Both the position numbers and the translations under genes were made by a program. Under the pieces are notes generated by a model. That model was not told where the DNA came from and did not search any database. It saw only the letters and a program-made list of their open reading frames with translations. From Comamonas sp. lk (GTDB taxonomy: Bacteria; Pseudomonadota; Gammaproteobacteria; Burkholderiales; Burkholderiaceae_C), in assembly GCA_945865675.1 (NCBI GenBank), contig CAMBFO010000001.1, forward strand, positions 27,379-91,378: a DNA stretch of 64,000 nt. The letters run 5' to 3'. Position 1 is the stretch's first letter, and each line of letters starts with the position of its first letter. Shown here piece after piece: positions 2,916 to 17,077 of this stretch.

Positions 2916-4328
2916 TTAGTGCGCAGCAAAAACAACACGGCTTGGCACCGGTTTGGATTGGCCGATTTGGCTCCACCAGGGCATTAGCAGGAAAAATCCG
3001 AAATAGAACAGGGTTCCCACTTGCGACACCCGCTCGCCAATTTGCGAAGGTGGTTGCACGCCCAGGTAAGCAAGAATGACGAAGTTGATGACAAAAACAC
3101 CGTACATGTACTTATGCCAATCGGGGCGGTAGCGGATGGACTTGACGTCGCAATTGTCCAGCCAGGGCAAGAAAAACAAAATCACCACCGCGCCACCCAT
3201 AACCACCACACCCCAGAACTTGGCGTCGGTGTTGAGCATCATGACGGTGACAGCCGCCGCCGCACCGAGCGCGACCACTTTGAACAAAGCGGCGAATTTG
3301 CCACGGGTTACGGCCAGTAGCGCAGCAAGCCAGATACAGCCGATCAGCACATAGACCATTTCAGCAGTGATGGCGCGCAGCATCGAGTAATAAGGCGTGA
3401 AGTACCAGACCGGCGCAATATGCAAAGGGGTTTTGAGCGGGTCGGCCGGTATGAAATTGTTGTACTCCAAGAAGTAGCCGCCAAATTCAGGCGCAAAAAA
3501 GATGATGGCAGTGAACACCATCAGAAACATGCTGACTGCAAAAATGTCGTGCACTGTGTAGTAGGGGTGAAAAGGGATACCGTCTAAAGGTTTGCCTTTG
3601 GCGTCCTTGGGGGCGTTGGGGCCCTTGATTTCAACGCCATCGGGGTTGTTGGAACCCACGTCGTGCAGAGCGAGCAAATGCGCCACCACCAATCCCAGCA
3701 AAACCAAAGGCACGGCGATCACGTGGAAAGCGAAGAAACGGTTGAGCGTGGCGTCGCCCACCACGTAGTCACCACGGATCAGCAGCGCCAGGTCGGGACC
3801 AACGAAAGGCACGGCGGCGAACAAGTTCACGATCACTTGCGCACCCCAGTAGCTCATCTGGCCCCAGGGCAGCAGGTAGCCCATAAAGGCTTCGGCCATC
3901 AGGCACAAAAAGATGGCGCAACCAAACAACCAGACCAGTTCGCGCGGCTTGCGGTAGCTGCCGTAGATCAGGCCGCGAAACATATGCAGGTACACCACGA
4001 CAAAGAAGGCCGAGGCGCCGGTGGAGTGCATATAGCGTATCAGCCAACCCCAGGGCACATCACGCATGATGTATTCGACGGAGCCGAAGGCCAGAGCGGC
4101 ATCAGGCTTGTAATGCATGACCAGGAAGATACCGGTCACGATCTGGATCACCAGCACCAGTATCGACAAGCCGCCAAAAATATAAAAAAAGTTGAAGTTT
4201 TTGGGCGCGTAGTATTCAGACAGATGAACGCGATAGGCGTCAAAGGCCGAAGGAAAACGGTTTTCTAGCCAGTTGCCCAGCTTGGCGCCGGCAGGCGCAT
4301 TGGGGGAGATTTCTTTGAATTCAGCCAT
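2916..4328 (-). CDS. petB: Ubiquinol-cytochrome c reductase, cytochrome b
   Basis: 470 aa multi-TM protein with GYLLPWGQMSYWGAQV and PFHPYYT motifs. Confidence 0.95.
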   Translation of the reverse strand: MAEFKEISPNAPAGAKLGNWLENRFPSAFDAYRVHLSEYYAPKNFNFFYIFGGLSILVLVIQIVTGIFLVMHYKPDAALAFGSVEYIMRDVPWGWLIRYMHSTGASAFFVVVYLHMFRGLIYGSYRKPRELVWLFGCAIFLCLMAEAFMGYLLPWGQMSYWGAQVIVNLFAAVPFVGPDLALLIRGDYVVGDATLNRFFAFHVIAVPLVLLGLVVAHLLALHDVGSNNPDGVEIKGPNAPKDAKGKPLDGIPFHPYYTVHDIFAVSMFLMVFTAIIFFAPEFGGYFLEYNNFIPADPLKTPLHIAPVWYFTPYYSMLRAITAEMVYVLIGCIWLAALLAVTRGKFAALFKVVALGAAAAVTVMMLNTDAKFWGVVVMGGAVVILFFLPWLDNCDVKSIRYRPDWHKYMYGVFVINFVILAYLGVQPPSQIGERVSQVGTLFYFGFFLLMPWWSQIGQSKPVPSRVVFAAH

Positions 4329-10684: not shown

Positions 10685-11083
10685 TTAATTGCCTTTGGGG
10701 TAAATCGTTGCAGGATCTTTGAGCACCGGTTCCACCGGCTGCCATTGCCCGTTTTGCAGCATGCTAAAAAAACAACTGTGGCGCCCGGTGTGGCAGGCAA
10801 TGCCAGGATCGTGGCCTTGTTGGGTGACAGTCAGCAGCACCACGTCAGCATCGCAATCTATACGAATCTCGTGCACCAACTGCACATGGCCGGATTCTTC
10901 GCCCTTGTGCCACAACTTGTTGCGCGAGCGGCTGAAATACACCGCACGGCCCAGCTCCACCGTTTTTTGCAGCGCCTGCCGGTTCATCCAGGCAAACATC
11001 AGAACGTCCTTGCTCCCCTGCTCCTGGGCAATAACAGGCACCAGGCCCTGGGCGTCCCATGTGATAGCGTCTAAATAAGTCAT
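10685..11083 (-). CDS. hisI: Phosphoribosyl-AMP cyclohydrolase
   Basis: [26 protein letters not shown]...[17 protein letters not shown]...[10 protein letters not shown]. Confidence 0.95.
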
Positions 11084-11281
11084 AAGGGGGGATGTTAAGG
11101 GCTGTTGTTCATCGGCTGCAGGCCTAGGCCATGGCCCGCTTCACCGCATCAAGGTCTGGCAATCGAACCTGTAATGCCACACCAATCGGGCAGCATCGCA
11201 TTTGATTAGGCAGGTGGGAAATAGATGGGTTAAGCCCATTCATTGGCGCCTCGTACAGCAGCGCTAATTATTTCATTCGCG

Positions 11282-11734
11282 CTATTTCGACCTGCGCGAC
11301 GACCAGTGAATTGAACGGATAACCCAGCCAGTAGGGTTTCTTGTGAGGACCATTAGCTCGGCACCAACCAGATTTACCGCCTTGGACTCGTAGGTGCCTT
11401 GCGTTACGCTCGTTGAAATTGCCCAGGCAACATCTCCACTCAGGGTCACGTCAATTTTGCTCTGGCGGGTGGGCACGGCCTGCGCAAACTTGATATCCGC
11501 CTGGAGGTGGTGTTCAAGGTATTCTTTTCTGGATTCACGATCGCCGCTCTCGAGGATCACCGCATCCGGCGCAAGGAGCCTAGAAACCGCCTGCGTGTCT
11601 GCCGCCAAAAGCGCAGCATGGTAGTTGCGAACTACCGCCGCAACTGCTGTAGCCTCGGAATCCCCACTCTGCGCTTGCGCCAGACATGTTGATGTCAGAA
11701 AGAGAAGGGCCACGATGCGGGGGATGTGAATCAT
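11282..11734 (-). CDS. NTF2-like / DUF4440 family secreted protein (putative cassette gene)
   Basis: Signal peptide then AVVRNYHAALLAADTQAVSRLLAPDAVILESGDRESRKEYLEHH, SnoaL/DUF4440-like. Confidence 0.75.
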   Translation of the reverse strand: MIHIPRIVALLFLTSTCLAQAQSGDSEATAVAAVVRNYHAALLAADTQAVSRLLAPDAVILESGDRESRKEYLEHHLQADIKFAQAVPTRQSKIDVTLSGDVAWAISTSVTQGTYESKAVNLVGAELMVLTRNPTGWVIRSIHWSSRRSK

Positions 11735-11827
11735 TGACGTACTTCTAAAGGAATAGATCTCCGCAGCCTAATGTGGGACCTGGGAGGACTGGTTAATCCA
11801 CATTATGGGGTGGCACTGCAACGCGCT

Positions 11828-11895
11828 GACTAAAGCTGGAAGTGAGACGTGCCTGGTGACCTGCCCTTGGGCCTCTCCTCGACAAGGGGTTAGGC
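11828..11895 (-). repeat. Candidate attC-like site 4 (degenerate)
   Basis: Minus strand GCCTAACCCCTTGTCGAGGAG...CACTTCCAGCTTTAGTC; GCCTAAC contains the stop codon of the GNAT gene; 3' box TTTAGTC is degenerate. Confidence 0.45.
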
Positions 11896-12423
11896 CGCAT
11901 TCGCCGCAGCCAGGGCTGGCTTGACCAGAACCAGTTCGTCAGGCTCGTCTCGATGCTGGGCTGCCTGTTCGTTGCTGGCTGGGACAAAGCCCAGCTTGCG
12001 CAACAGAGCCTCCGAACGATAGTTACGTGCCTTCAGAACCGCGATGAAGGTTGCGACACCGTACTGATCGCGAAGCTCTTGGAGCACCGCCCGAACGGCG
12101 CTGCTTCCGATGCCTTGGCGCCAGTATTGACTATGGAGTTCGTACGCGACGTAAGCAGAACCGTCTTGAAATACCGTGGCTTGCACGTAGCCGGCCAGCT
12201 TACCGACTGGAAGACGAATGACCCAGTTGAGCCACTGTTGCGTCCCGTCGCTTGAGCCCCGACTTTCAAGGCCTGCGAAGCGCTTCCTCAGCCACTCTTC
12301 GTCGATCGGTGGTGCGTTCTCGAACTCGTAGATGGCCGGATCGCTCAGCACGGTGAACATCTCCTGCGCGTGCGCAGCGAGTTGGGGTTCTAGGACAAAG
12401 GGCGGTGCGGCTAGGGTTCGCAT
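11890..12423 (-). CDS. GNAT-family N-acetyltransferase (putative cassette gene)
   Basis: MRTLAAPPFVLEPQLAAHA...YELHSQYWRQGIGSSAVRAVLQELRDQYG...ARNYRSEALLRKLGFV. Confidence 0.85.
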   Translation of the reverse strand: MRTLAAPPFVLEPQLAAHAQEMFTVLSDPAIYEFENAPPIDEEWLRKRFAGLESRGSSDGTQQWLNWVIRLPVGKLAGYVQATVFQDGSAYVAYELHSQYWRQGIGSSAVRAVLQELRDQYGVATFIAVLKARNYRSEALLRKLGFVPASNEQAAQHRDEPDELVLVKPALAAANAA

Positions 12424-12426
12424 AGG

Positions 12427-12537
12427 GCCTAAGTTTGAAGGTGAGGCGCCGAAGCCAGTTGGCCGCTCGGAGCTGAAAATATACAGGCAGCGTAGCGCGG
12501 CCAGTTGACGGCGGACCACTCAAGCGACCGGTCAGAC
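12427..12537 (-). repeat. Candidate attC-like site 3 (degenerate core)
   Basis: Minus strand GTCTGACCGGTCGCTTGAGTGG...GGCGCCTCACCTTCAAACTTAGGC; internal GGCCGC/GCGGCC inverted repeat; next ATG 4 nt after the 3' box. Confidence 0.55.
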
Positions 12538-12567
12538 CGCGGCCTGGATTGGCTTCTGTTTCGCAAA

Positions 12568-12780
12568 CTAGGAACTCGCCCTAAGCAAGCGGCGGTAAAC
12601 CGCAGGAGCAAGCCACCACGAGACGGGGCCAAGAAACCCGGCGGAGACCACTGCGGCGGCAATGAACGAATGGTTGAGGATGCCCGCAAGAACTATCAAG
12701 ATCAGGCCCTCGACGGCGGCACATACGCACACCGTTTGAAGCGCTGCAGTGAAGCGGGGATTTTGTTCAAAGTAAGTCAT
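12568..12780 (-). CDS. Small membrane protein, 70 aa (putative cassette gene)
   Basis: MTYFEQNPRFTAALQTVCVCAAVEGLILIVLAGILNHSFIAAAVVSAGFLGPVSWWLAPAVYRRLLRASS, two hydrophobic spans, ATG directly after attC-like site 2. Confidence 0.6.
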   Translation of the reverse strand: MTYFEQNPRFTAALQTVCVCAAVEGLILIVLAGILNHSFIAAAVVSAGFLGPVSWWLAPAVYRRLLRASS

Positions 12781-12782
12781 AG

Positions 12783-12898
12783 GCGGCATAACGTCGTAGT
12801 TCCGACACGAGTGGCGACTGGGCGCGGAAGGCAAGAATGAAATGAAGGCTTGGAGCGGCCAGCCGTTGCAAGCCGGATCGAACGCGAGGTTATGCCGC
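12783..12898 (-). repeat. Putative integron attC site 2 (best example)
   Basis: Perfect 10 bp inverted ends GCGGCATAAC / GTTATGCCGC; adjacent partly complementary L-box-like CTCGCGTTCGATCCGG vs GTCGTAGTTCCGACACGAG; about 116 bp. Confidence 0.75.
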
Positions 12899-12949
12899 AC
12901 GAGCGTAGTTCCAAGCTAAGAAGTCAAAACTAGCGGCAAGATACGCATA

Positions 12950-13120
12950 TCAGGCTCGGAACAGCGTACCAAAGACCGCAATGCCGATCGCTGTGACCCA
13001 GAACACAAGTTCGACGATCGATAGCTTCCAAATCGCCCGCAGTGACAAGAGGCGATTTGCAATCCTCTCTCTATGGGAGGCCTCGGGCTTGCAGGGCATG
13101 TCTGGCTCTTTGCTTTGCAT
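12950..13120 (-). CDS. Tiny membrane protein, 56 aa (putative cassette gene)
   Basis: MQSKEPDMPCKPEASHRERIANRLLSLRAIWKLSIVELVFWVTAIGIAVFGTLFRA with AAAGGAG upstream; one TM. Confidence 0.55.
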   Translation of the reverse strand: MQSKEPDMPCKPEASHRERIANRLLSLRAIWKLSIVELVFWVTAIGIAVFGTLFRA

Positions 13121-13158
13121 CAAAACTCCTTTGCCGAACCCGTACTTATTCTTTCTTG

Positions 13159-13313
13159 CCGCATAACGTTGAAACACGTGAATGATCTGCATTTTTTTCA
13201 GGCACAAATGCTCCACAAAACTCGGCACCCCTTATTTGCAGTCCACTCGTCCGTCTAACCAAGAGCGCGCTGCTTGATCGAGTGCTTAAGGTCACTGGGG
13301 AGCGCTTATGCGG
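13159..13313 (-). repeat. Candidate attC-like site 1 (long)
   Basis: Inverted ends CCGCATAA (13159-13166) / TTATGCGG (13306-13313); minus-strand TTTCAACGTTATGCGG end resembles L'/R' boxes; extra GTTAGAC inside (13253-13259). Confidence 0.5.
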
Positions 13314-13374
13314 TGGCAGGGTGGTACTGCTCCGCTGTAGGGCGTTTGCAAACAGGCTCATCGGAGAAATATCC

Positions 13375-13743
13375 TCATGGAATAGTGCTGCTTGTGCTGT
13401 GCAGCATCTTTAAACCAACGATTCCTGCAACGATGGCGAAGATACAAACAATACGACCTGCGGAAGCGGGCTCATTGAAAAAAACTATACCTAAAATGGC
13501 TGCGCCTACAGCACCGATTCCTGTCCACACCGCGTAAGCAGTGCCAAGCGGAAGCGACTGCATCGCCATTCCGAGTAGCCAGAAGCTCAACCATGCGGCA
13601 ATGAAGGTAATGCCAGTGTATAGATGTTTGGTATAGCCGTCCGAGGCCTTCATGCTACAGGACCAAACGACCTCCAATACTCCCGCTATAAGCAGAAGGA
13701 TCCAAGCGGTGGTTGCGGTAGAAATTGACAGCATGGCAATCAC
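13375..13743 (-). CDS. SMR-family small multidrug/guanidinium exporter (SugE/Gdx-like)
   Basis: WILLLIAGVLEVVWSCSMKASDGYTKH...SLPLGTAYAVWTGIGAVGAAILGIVFFNEPAS. Confidence 0.9.
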   Translation of the reverse strand: MIAMLSISTATTAWILLLIAGVLEVVWSCSMKASDGYTKHLYTGITFIAAWLSFWLLGMAMQSLPLGTAYAVWTGIGAVGAAILGIVFFNEPASAGRIVCIFAIVAGIVGLKMLHSTSSTIP

Positions 13744-13800
13744 ATCCTTTCGTTGAGGAGAAGAAAAAGCTTTGCAGGGAGGCCCTATGCATAAATAAGG

Positions 13801-14358
13801 TCACGCGACGGGCCGTTGCCAAGGGGCACGCTCTTTGAACCCTGCCAAACGGAAAGCACTGACCATGGGGTGATTGTTCGTACCGGTATCGCAGAACAGC
13901 CTCCAGCAGTTTGCAAGTTGGCTGGTGCGGACGGCCTCTTCCAGTAGTTCTTGGCCGTAACCGCGGCCTCGATAGGCTGGTAGCAAGCCCATGTAGAAGA
14001 TCGTCGCTTCCGGACGTCCGTCCTTCCAGGTCTCGTCTCCCTTGAATAGTACCGACAGTACAAATCCAACCCTGTTACTTTCTGCGTCCTTGGCTACTTG
14101 CCACCAGCCAGGCGGCATGTCGAAATATTGCGGCGCCATGGTGATGAGTTCGCTTGCCGCTTGATTTTGCCCGTTTTGTGAAACCGCGTAAATATCTGAC
14201 TCATCCAAGGAACTTGCCATCGTCTGCGCCACGGCAAACGTCAGCCACTCGCCATCAGCTACCCCATAGCTCAGACGTGAGCTAGCCTTGGGCGCCGGAC
14301 ACCCCTCTTCCCAGACAAAGGGAGTTTTCCAGTAGTGACCAGACCGAAGATCTTCCAT
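13801..14358 (-). CDS. GNAT-family N-acetyltransferase
   Basis: GLLPAYRGRGYGQELLEEAVRTSQLANCWRLFCDTGTNNHPMVSAFRLAGFKERAPW; acetyl-CoA binding R-G-x-G-Y-G. Confidence 0.85.
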   Translation of the reverse strand: MEDLRSGHYWKTPFVWEEGCPAPKASSRLSYGVADGEWLTFAVAQTMASSLDESDIYAVSQNGQNQAASELITMAPQYFDMPPGWWQVAKDAESNRVGFVLSVLFKGDETWKDGRPEATIFYMGLLPAYRGRGYGQELLEEAVRTSQLANCWRLFCDTGTNNHPMVSAFRLAGFKERAPWQRPVA

Positions 14359-14661
14359 GTGAGCCTTACATCAATATTTTTATAAAATGTACTATATACT
14401 GAAAATTAATAATAGTTTCTAATTAACTTTGCCCGGCGTATTGAAGCAGGCTGCTTGTGAGGCTTTTTTTCATCCCGGAAGTTCGCCCAGGTTGTGTCCC
14501 GCGTATGTTCACCTTGGTGACGCGAGCCACGTACATCGCGTGATGTTTTCGGCCTAGTTGCTTGAGTATGCTTACTTGAGCGGTTGATTTTTTAATCTTC
14601 GAACGTTTCGCAGCCCTGCCGCTTTAGGATTCGTTCGAACATAGGGCGAAAAGTTCGTTGA

Positions 14662-15462
14662 TTACAACCTAACCGGAATCCCCCGCTCCCGCATCCTCGC
14701 CTTCGCCTGCCCTACGGTGTACTCACCGTAGTGGAAGATGCTGGCGGCCAGGACGGCATCAGCACCGCCTTGTTGGATGCCGTCGGCCAGGTGGTCCAGG
14801 TTGCCCACACCGCCCGATGCGATGACGGGCACGGGTACAGCGTCGCTGACTGCGCGGGTCAGCGCCAGATCAAAGCCGCTTTTGGTGCCGTCGCGGTCCA
14901 TGCTGGTGAGCAATATTTCTCCCGCGCCGTAGTCCGCCATTTGCGTGGCCCAAGCCACCGCGTCCAGGCCCACGTTTTTGCGGCCGCCGTGGCTGTACAC
15001 GTCCCAGCCCGGGCCAATAGGTAAACCATTCGCGCCGATGCGTTGCTCGTCTTCTGCGCTGCGGCGTTTGGCGTCGATAGCCACCACGATGCATTGCGCG
15101 CCGTACTTGGCCGAGGCGTCGCGGATGACTTGCGGGTTGGCAATGGCCGCCGAGTTAAAGCTGGTTTTGTCGGCCCCGGCGTTGAGCAATCTGCGCACGT
15201 CTTCGACGGTGCGCACACCGCCGCCCACGGTGAGCGGGATGAACACCTGGCTGGCCACGGCTTCGATGATGTGCAAGATCACATCGCGCCCGTCGCTGGT
15301 GGCGGTGATGTCCAAGAAAGTCAGCTCATCCGCGCCTTGCTCGTTGTAGCGGGCCGCGATTTCTACCGGGTCTCCCGCGTCGCGCAGTTCGACAAAGTTC
15401 ACGCCCTTGACCACGCGGCCACCGGTCACATCCAGGCAAGGGATGATGCGTTTAGCCAGCAT
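14662..15462 (-). CDS. hisF: Imidazole glycerol phosphate synthase subunit HisF
   Basis: [34 protein letters not shown]. Confidence 0.96.
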
Positions 15463-15465
15463 GCT

Positions 15466-16344
15466 TCAAACCCCTAAAACGCGCAAACGCTGGCTGCCGC
15501 TCCAGTGACCGCCTGCCGCCACGGTAATAGGCTCGAACACTTGTGCCGCCTCCACGCACAGCATGCGTTCAAACGCGTCGGGCGTCATGTCAGGCATAAG
15601 AGCGCAGCCCGCTGCGCCAGGGTTCCACACCACGCAGTCTGCCCAGCCCGCGCTGTTGCTAATCTCCAAAGCACCAAGTGGGTCGTGTAAATGCATGGGC
15701 GCGGGCGGGGCGCTGTAGACCCGGTCAAACGGGCCCACGCATTGCAAACTGTCGGCAGCGCGCTGGTGCACGTCTGCGCGCGAATCCCATTCTTTTTGTC
15801 CGCCCAAACCGGATAGGCGCACTTGCGCAATATCGCTCACGGCCAGGTAGGAATGCAGCGCGCCGGTAAAGCGCAAAGCTTGCGTGCCCAGATTGCGCAC
15901 CTCCAGGGTTACGCAAAGTTGTTCTGGCAGCAAGTCCACGCGCAAGCGGGTTTCAAACTCGGCGGGCCAAATGGCGCGGGTGTTGTCATCTGCATTGAAG
16001 CCAAAGCACAAGCTGGCTGGTGACTCGCCCGCCTCTGCGTCCAGCAAGGCCCAGGGCAGATTGCGCACAAAACCATGTTTGGGTAAATCGCCGCGCTGGT
16101 TGAACTGCGGAAAGCAAATGGGGATGCCACCGCGAATCGCGGTGTGCCCGTCCCACACGGAATGGGGGCTGACGAACAGGCGCTCGCGCCCACCCTGGAG
16201 CCAAGAAATGACATGCGCGCCTTGCAGCGCCACCAGCACGCTGTCTCCATCGGCCAGCGTCAGGCGGTGGCAGGGCTGGCCTTGGAAAAGTTCTTCGCTG
16301 CGCGTGGCTAGGGCCGCGCCGGGCTCAGCCATTGCATTAGCCAT
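15466..16344 (-). CDS. D-hexose-6-phosphate mutarotase (aldose 1-epimerase family)
   Basis: [40 protein letters not shown]; inside his operon. Confidence 0.88.
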
Positions 16345-17077
16345 TGAGTTCGTCAGCGCGGGCTTGGCCGGCGGCAAAGTCCAGGTCGCCGGTGTAAATC
16401 GCGCGCCCGCAGATCACGCCCTCCACGCCTTCGTCTTCCACTTCGCACAGGGCTTCGATGTCGGCCATATTGGAGAGGCCCCCCGAGGCGATAACCGGAA
16501 TCGAGAGTGCTTGCGCCAGCGCCACGGTGGCCGGGATGTTGATGCCGGTGAGCATGCCGTCGCGGCCTATGTCGGTGTAGATGATGGATTCGACGCCGTA
16601 GTCTTCAAACTTTTTACCCAGATCGACTACATCGTGGCGGGTGAGTTTGCTCCAGCCGTCGGTGGCGACTTTGCCTTCTTTAGCGTCTAGGCCGACGATG
16701 ATGTGGCCGCCAAATGCGGTACAAGCATCTTGCAAAAAGCCGGGGTTTTTGACCGCGGCGGTGCCGATGATGACGTAGCGCAGGCCGGCGTCGAGATAGC
16801 GCTCAATCGTGTCCAGGTCGCGGATGCCGCCGCCGAGTTGCACATCGACTTCGCTACCGACTTCTTTGAGGATGCGACGAATGGCTGCCTCGTTTTTCGG
16901 GTGCCCGGCAAAGGCGCCGTTCAGGTCCACCAGATGCAAGCGCCTGGCGCCCTTGTCCACCCAGCTGCGCGCTATGGCGACCGGGTCTTCCCCGAAAGTG
17001 GTGGATTGATCCATATCGCCTTGTTGCAGGCGAACGCAGTGGCCGTCTTTGAGGTCAATAGCGGGGATAAGCAGCAT
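16337..17077 (-). CDS. hisA: ProFAR isomerase HisA
   Basis: [36 protein letters not shown]. Confidence 0.96.

Follow-up and report, generated by a model that had tools for sequence, protein, structure and literature searches.

A probable remnant of a sedentary integron between hisF and hisI in Comamonas sp. lk and its relatives

A cluster of attC sites lacking integron-integrases (CALIN) is defined in practice by two or more attC sites that have no intact integrase gene, intI, next to them (PMC9024848). In Xanthomonas, an ancestral integron lies beside ilvD, its intI has mostly been inactivated by deletion or stop codons, and CALINs occur at further conserved loci (PMC12444791). Pseudogenes make up about a third of intI genes, and over a fifth of intI carriers hold at least two copies, in some cases through intragenomic duplication (Nemergut et al. 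2008, PMC2426708). Here we examine a 3578-bp insert between hisF and hisI in Comamonas sp. lk, located in a 64,000-nucleotide stretch of contig CAMBFO010000001.1 (the window), and the same locus in related genomes. The insert is very probably the remnant of a whole resident integron that was inserted once in the clade ancestor, exchanged cassettes, and then lost its integrase. The region is a degraded sedentary integron in an unusual in-operon place, and operationally it is a CALIN because it has two attC sites and no neighbouring intact intI.

The Xanthomonas ilvD integron is the closest published case. Both loci have a fixed ancestral site by an amino-acid biosynthesis gene, a mostly dead intI, lineage-specific cassettes and further conserved loci, whereas the locus described here belongs to Comamonadaceae, its platform sits inside a gene series with hisI and hisE behind the array, and at the further loci attI and an intI stub often survive rather than attCs alone. 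As in the CALINs of IntegronFinder (PMC9024848), at least two attC sites lie here without a neighbouring intact integrase, but an intI stub persists, orthologous loci show the parent integron, and two of the four expected attCs are recognisable. Unlike the pseudo-integrons of Nemergut et al. (PMC2426708), the dead platforms here number several in each genome and occupy orthologous sites in different species. New here are the lineage, the placement within the his gene series and how many conserved dead platforms there are; a literature search with little reach into subscription journals returned no paper on integrons at hisF-hisI or in this lineage.

The source draft genome (G000) is 2.7 Mb and 88.9% complete, and the window lies on its 91-kb contig. 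A preliminary description of this DNA, made from the sequence alone, reported unrelated short genes between hisF and hisI, and this was borne out: the 3578-bp gap contains six open reading frames (ORFs), which in operon order are GNATb, SMR, 56 aa, 70 aa, GNATa and DUF4440/SnoaL-like, all on the minus strand as are the his genes. The insert is flanked by his and tat genes. Its features, in operon order, are as follows.

14662..15462, minus strand: hisF, the left (5′ in operon sense) border of the insert; Pfam His_biosynth, 281 bits
13270..14661, minus strand: block of GNATb and SMR, absent from the nearest relative G126, no attC, in the former place of most of intI
13801-14358, minus strand: GNATb, the GNAT gene of the block
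13375-13743, minus strand: the SMR gene of the block, closest to SugE
13206..13269, plus strand: intI 5′ stub of ~20 codons, antisense to the his operon and convergent with hisF
13161..13167, minus strand: leading core GTTATGC of cassette 1, the end of a lost attI or attC
12950..13120, minus strand: cassette 1 gene, an ORF for a small hydrophobic protein of 56 aa, 89% in L088, no family
12786..12895, minus strand: attC of cassette 1; 23.2 bits, E 9.5e-4 (64 kb) with the model R1 described below
12568..12780, minus strand: cassette 2 gene, an ORF for a membrane-like protein of 70 aa
12427..12537, minus strand: degenerate attC candidate of cassette 2, found by eye, with R′ box CTTAGGC
11890..12423, minus strand: cassette 3 gene, GNATa, a GNAT acetyltransferase; Acetyltransf_3, E 1e-15
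11766..11895, minus strand: attC of cassette 3; R1 18.4 bits, E 0.016 (64 kb)
11282..11734, minus strand: cassette 4 gene, DUF4440/SnoaL-like, E 5e-12 to DUF4440, probable signal peptide by eye
11084..11281, minus strand: degenerate array end and hisI leader, no R1 match
10685..11083, minus strand: hisI, the right border of the insert; Pfam PRA-CH, 117 bits

The attC sites were called using a covariance model (R1) built from 18 attC sites in arrays of the same genus, none of them from the window, with R″/R′ and L″/L′ pairing that covaries on the training alignment. As a positive control, R1 recovers many attCs beside intact integrases outside its training set. Scanning both strands of the 64 kb with an E limit of 10 gave only two matches, both inside the insert, on the cassette strand and directly behind an ORF. 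These two sites are ~0.9 kb apart on the minus strand, are called by the genus model and not by IntegronFinder's own, and have orthologs in G126 (locus L088) scoring 25.7 bits for the cassette 1 site and 19.0 bits for the cassette 3 site. The preliminary description saw attC-like sites in four gaps and proposed a covariance model as the check; two of them (12895-12786 and 11895-11766) were recovered, and the others are degenerate or absent. With filters off, R1 gives only a partial match behind the 70 aa ORF (5.4 bits, E 1.7) and nothing convincing behind GNATb, SMR or DUF4440, and the sites suggested at the GNATb/SMR end and after DUF4440 were not confirmed. An Rfam 15 search of the region returned no relevant family. 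Two home-made attC scanners were also abandoned, the first being too strict and the second no better than on shuffled sequence. The core that opens a cassette is complementary to the R″ box of the attC in the same cassette, and in cassette 1 the core GTTATGC (13167-13161) is the exact complement of the R″ box GCATAAC (12895-12889).

Evidence for a resident integron comes from the same gap in relatives. In G010 and G028 the hisF-hisI gap opens with an ORF of 173 aa that converges on hisF. This ORF matches the integron integrase NF011946 best (179.5 and 190.8 bits, respectively), in two segments, the central part of the protein being absent. G107 is arranged in the same way with a further break, and G021 has a more decayed copy. 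Adjoining these intI remnants is an attI-like sequence, homologous to one beside the intact intI of G074, and then come cassettes; attCs at the orthologous loci reach 71.6 bits. The attI can be recognised in G010, G028, G107, G021 and G027; in the window, G126 and G036 it cannot, and homologous DNA is left there only around the intI start. In the window this DNA is the stub, with 76-86% homology to the beginning of intI in G036, G028 and G021 at the same locus, and its ortholog in L088 (6865-6797) is recognised by protein (E 5e-5). By the homology of 13206-13269, then, an intI remnant adjoins the cassette array. A full-length intI was found nowhere at this locus, the gene being a stub in the window and, at every sister locus seen, either deleted or decayed, and the window has no recognisable attI beside intI of the kind that marks a complete, functional integron.

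No intact integrase was found elsewhere in this group of genomes. The G000 draft has no TIGR02249 match over cut-off, and its other matches are weak and Xer-like. Integron integrases over the family cut-off are present in 21 of 103 genus genomes, none of which belongs to the hisF-hisI clade. Searching 16 draft genomes (the clade and relatives) with the G074 protein returned no intact intI, only Xer-type recombinases and fragments, including one of 120 residues at a contig start in G021; as the searched genomes are drafts, an intI gene may have been missed. The region had been called a CALIN with no local integrase, and while the two attCs and the lack of an intact intI in the draft agree with this, the intI 5′ stub had been overlooked.

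In a tree built from up to ten his-tat region proteins, the window falls with L087-L096 (support 1.0), and L145 and L151 (G017 and G027) are sister to this group (0.99); a first tree from four his proteins had put these two genomes outside the clade. In every clade member with both genes on one contig, the hisF ortholog adjoins the insert and the hisF-hisI distance is 0.4-6.9 kb with differing contents. These contents vary even between sister species, so the same six genes are not conserved across relatives; their conservation across distant relatives is what the preliminary description had named as contrary to its reading. The site is therefore fixed and the cassettes variable across species, with G017 and G027 seen from the hisI side only; upstream of hisI there are attC sites in both and an attI in G027. 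The last ~27 nt upstream of hisI are kept across the clade in a leader alignment. Outgroups have short hisF-hisI gaps with no attC between the genes, and judging from these comparisons a single gain in the clade ancestor would best account for the occupied clade site against the short outgroup gaps.

There are several points that weigh against this history. The window stub taken alone is not significant (E 0.56), its identity resting on homology to relatives, and the window attC scores are low (18-23 bits) next to the 30-50 bits mostly seen beside intact integrases. Little recognisable integron sequence is retained at the site in G002, G106 and G121, so decay there is presumed. All of the clade genomes are drafts: the G017 and G027 contigs stop before hisF and that of L089 (G108) stops 145 nt before hisI, meaning the whole interval is not visible in the first two and L089 (G108) is uninformative.

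Taking the evidence as a whole, a complete sedentary integron (intI, attI and cassettes) would have entered between hisF and hisI once, in the ancestor of a clade of freshwater Comamonadaceae, its intI and hisF in convergent orientation and its array in operon direction. While its integrase worked, cassettes would have been captured and exchanged, which would be why the present species differ in content. The intI would then have been lost through internal deletion and decay, freezing the arrays. In the window the present state is an intI stub of ~20 codons, an unrecognisable attI, four cassettes and two recognisable attCs, with a separate GNAT-SMR block now filling most of the former integrase region. 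The insert may be co-transcribed with the his operon, hisI-hisE may depend on read-through or an internal promoter, and the remaining cassettes are probably immobile. A consensus scan for a sigma-70-like site for the platform promoter (Pc) found none, though such a scan says little for this organism.

The block next to hisF is where an alternative has the most room. Cassettes often carry GNAT and SMR genes, and GNATb and SMR are on the same strand as the remaining insert genes at a locus whose other attCs are strongly decayed, so they could also be cassettes with attCs decayed beyond recognition, in an array of six on both sides of the stub. We consider this improbable, since there is no attC match even with filters off, GNATb and SMR are just 57 nt apart, and the block, which G126 lacks, is on the side of the stub where the integrase was. 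Between the stub and hisI, G126 (L088), the nearest relative with the full interval, aligns to the window at 95% over 2190 nt, but it has neither GNATb nor SMR, and the block was either gained in the window lineage or lost in the G126 lineage. GNATb has no homologs at E 1e-15 in the 102 other genus genomes, and SMR relatives in those genomes are only 45-52% identical. Because the block is seen in a single draft genome, an assembly artefact is not strictly excluded, although the first ~165 nt of the block are common to the window and L093 (G121).

A second alternative is the one the preliminary description favoured, in which the cassette run arrived in the operon from elsewhere: a trans-acting integrase would have put cassettes at an attG-like secondary site, and an integron would never have been resident. 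The window attC array does have no neighbouring intact intI, the hisF end GGTTAGGTTG resembles a core site by eye, and cassette insertion at attG sites has a precedent in E. coli, at least as cited in PMC12444791. This reading is contradicted by the truncated intI and attI in the same gap of G010, G028 and G107, the decayed copy in G021, and the stub in the window, G126 and G036; with these remnants occupying the gap in relatives, a landed array is unsupported and quite unlikely. Lastly, an ordinary gene-insertion hotspot with chance palindromes taken for attC might fit the modest window scores, the home-made motif scans that did not discriminate against shuffles and the unrelated DNA interrupting hisF-hisI in other Comamonadaceae, but the sole two R1 matches in 64 kb both fall in the insert and the orthologous loci with intI remnants, attI and attCs to 71.6 bits refute it, leaving it a negligible chance.

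The interruptions in other Comamonadaceae were looked at separately. We asked whether the wide hisF-hisI gaps of Pseudacidovorax, Comamonas odontotermitis and Ottowia are further integrons and ruled this out, as they have no attC; the hisF-hisI spans in these (L097, L149, L157, L162, L164, L119 and L129) are 2-8.5 kb. One lone strong attC (2864-2930, 38.6 bits) was seen in Rhodoferax sp. BLA1 (L099), ~6 kb upstream of hisI.

Returning to the resident integron, its cassette gene GNATa is also found at the hisF-hisI locus in L088, L091 and L093, and the DUF4440 protein is 100% identical in L088 and 93% in L091. The ratio of nonsynonymous to synonymous divergence (dN/dS) between the window and relatives is 0.25-0.31 for GNATa and 0-0.13 for DUF4440, with hisF and hisI at 0.04-0.10, and the 70 aa gene has 7 synonymous and 2 nonsynonymous changes against L088. 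The dN/dS values suggest that the cassette genes are maintained, though they are no proof of expression. Synonymous divergence from L088 in window 11231-12310 is about 0.05 for GNATa and DUF4440, compared to about 0.30 for hisF and hisI. Because of this low value we considered that the array may recently have been transferred between G000 and G126, but the non-coding array parts are as divergent as the flanks. Plasmid searches with both GNAT proteins gave remote homologs only.

Some further observations were made around the his genes. The mutarotase that had been placed before hisF is an aldose 1-epimerase gene (window 15466-16377) between hisA and hisF, with 55-90% identity within the clade. 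Downstream of hisI, the order had been given as hisI-hisE-hinT-tatABC, of which hisE, hinT, tatB and tatC were found. Several clade members carry toxin-antitoxin-like pairs near hisI on the opposite strand, which by eye resemble ParDE, VapBC and HicAB:

L035, 15605-16284, opposite strand: toxin-antitoxin-like pair, by eye
L041, 1720-2435, opposite strand: toxin-antitoxin-like pair, by eye
L037, 2989-3617, opposite strand: toxin-antitoxin-like pair, by eye

Beside the HicAB-like pair of L037 (G036), just upstream of hisI at ~3644-3700, the last ~48 nt of hisF occur a second time, with an alignment score of 34.8 where shuffled sequences reach at most 13.2. It looks as if an element once integrated into the hisF 3′ end, but as the displaced copy was not seen in the other genomes, we claim no insertion mechanism.

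The his locus is not the only platform in these genomes. A query of the intI 5′ part with attI matches many other places in the clade, and comparing the integrase-side flanks resolved eight further chromosomal positions (L197-L215), five of which are common to two to five genomes; attCs in the correct orientation lie behind six of the eight. Neighbours of these platforms include an ABC transporter ATPase, a UPF0176/rhodanese protein and a HI0933-like flavoprotein. The preliminary description had called for a search of the rest of the genome, and G000 itself, with no intact intI, has two more platforms, C46 (L197) and C115 (L198), with three attCs each. It is possible, and we offer it only tentatively, that the clade holds an archipelago of platforms (intI 5′ part, attI and attC array) spread to about eight further sites, with all found integrases dead, and that the his copy brings captured genes under the control of a housekeeping biosynthetic promoter, the expression of hisI-hisE then depending on the content of the array. 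If true, this would raise the question of how whole platforms multiplied inside one genome.

The related species show steps from an integron to a CALIN at one site, namely an internally deleted intI, a decayed intI, a stub and a scar. A cassette array can persist within a core biosynthetic gene series throughout the divergence of a clade, and the presence of integrase-dead platforms at several conserved loci opens a way to study platform multiplication and the retention of frozen cassettes.

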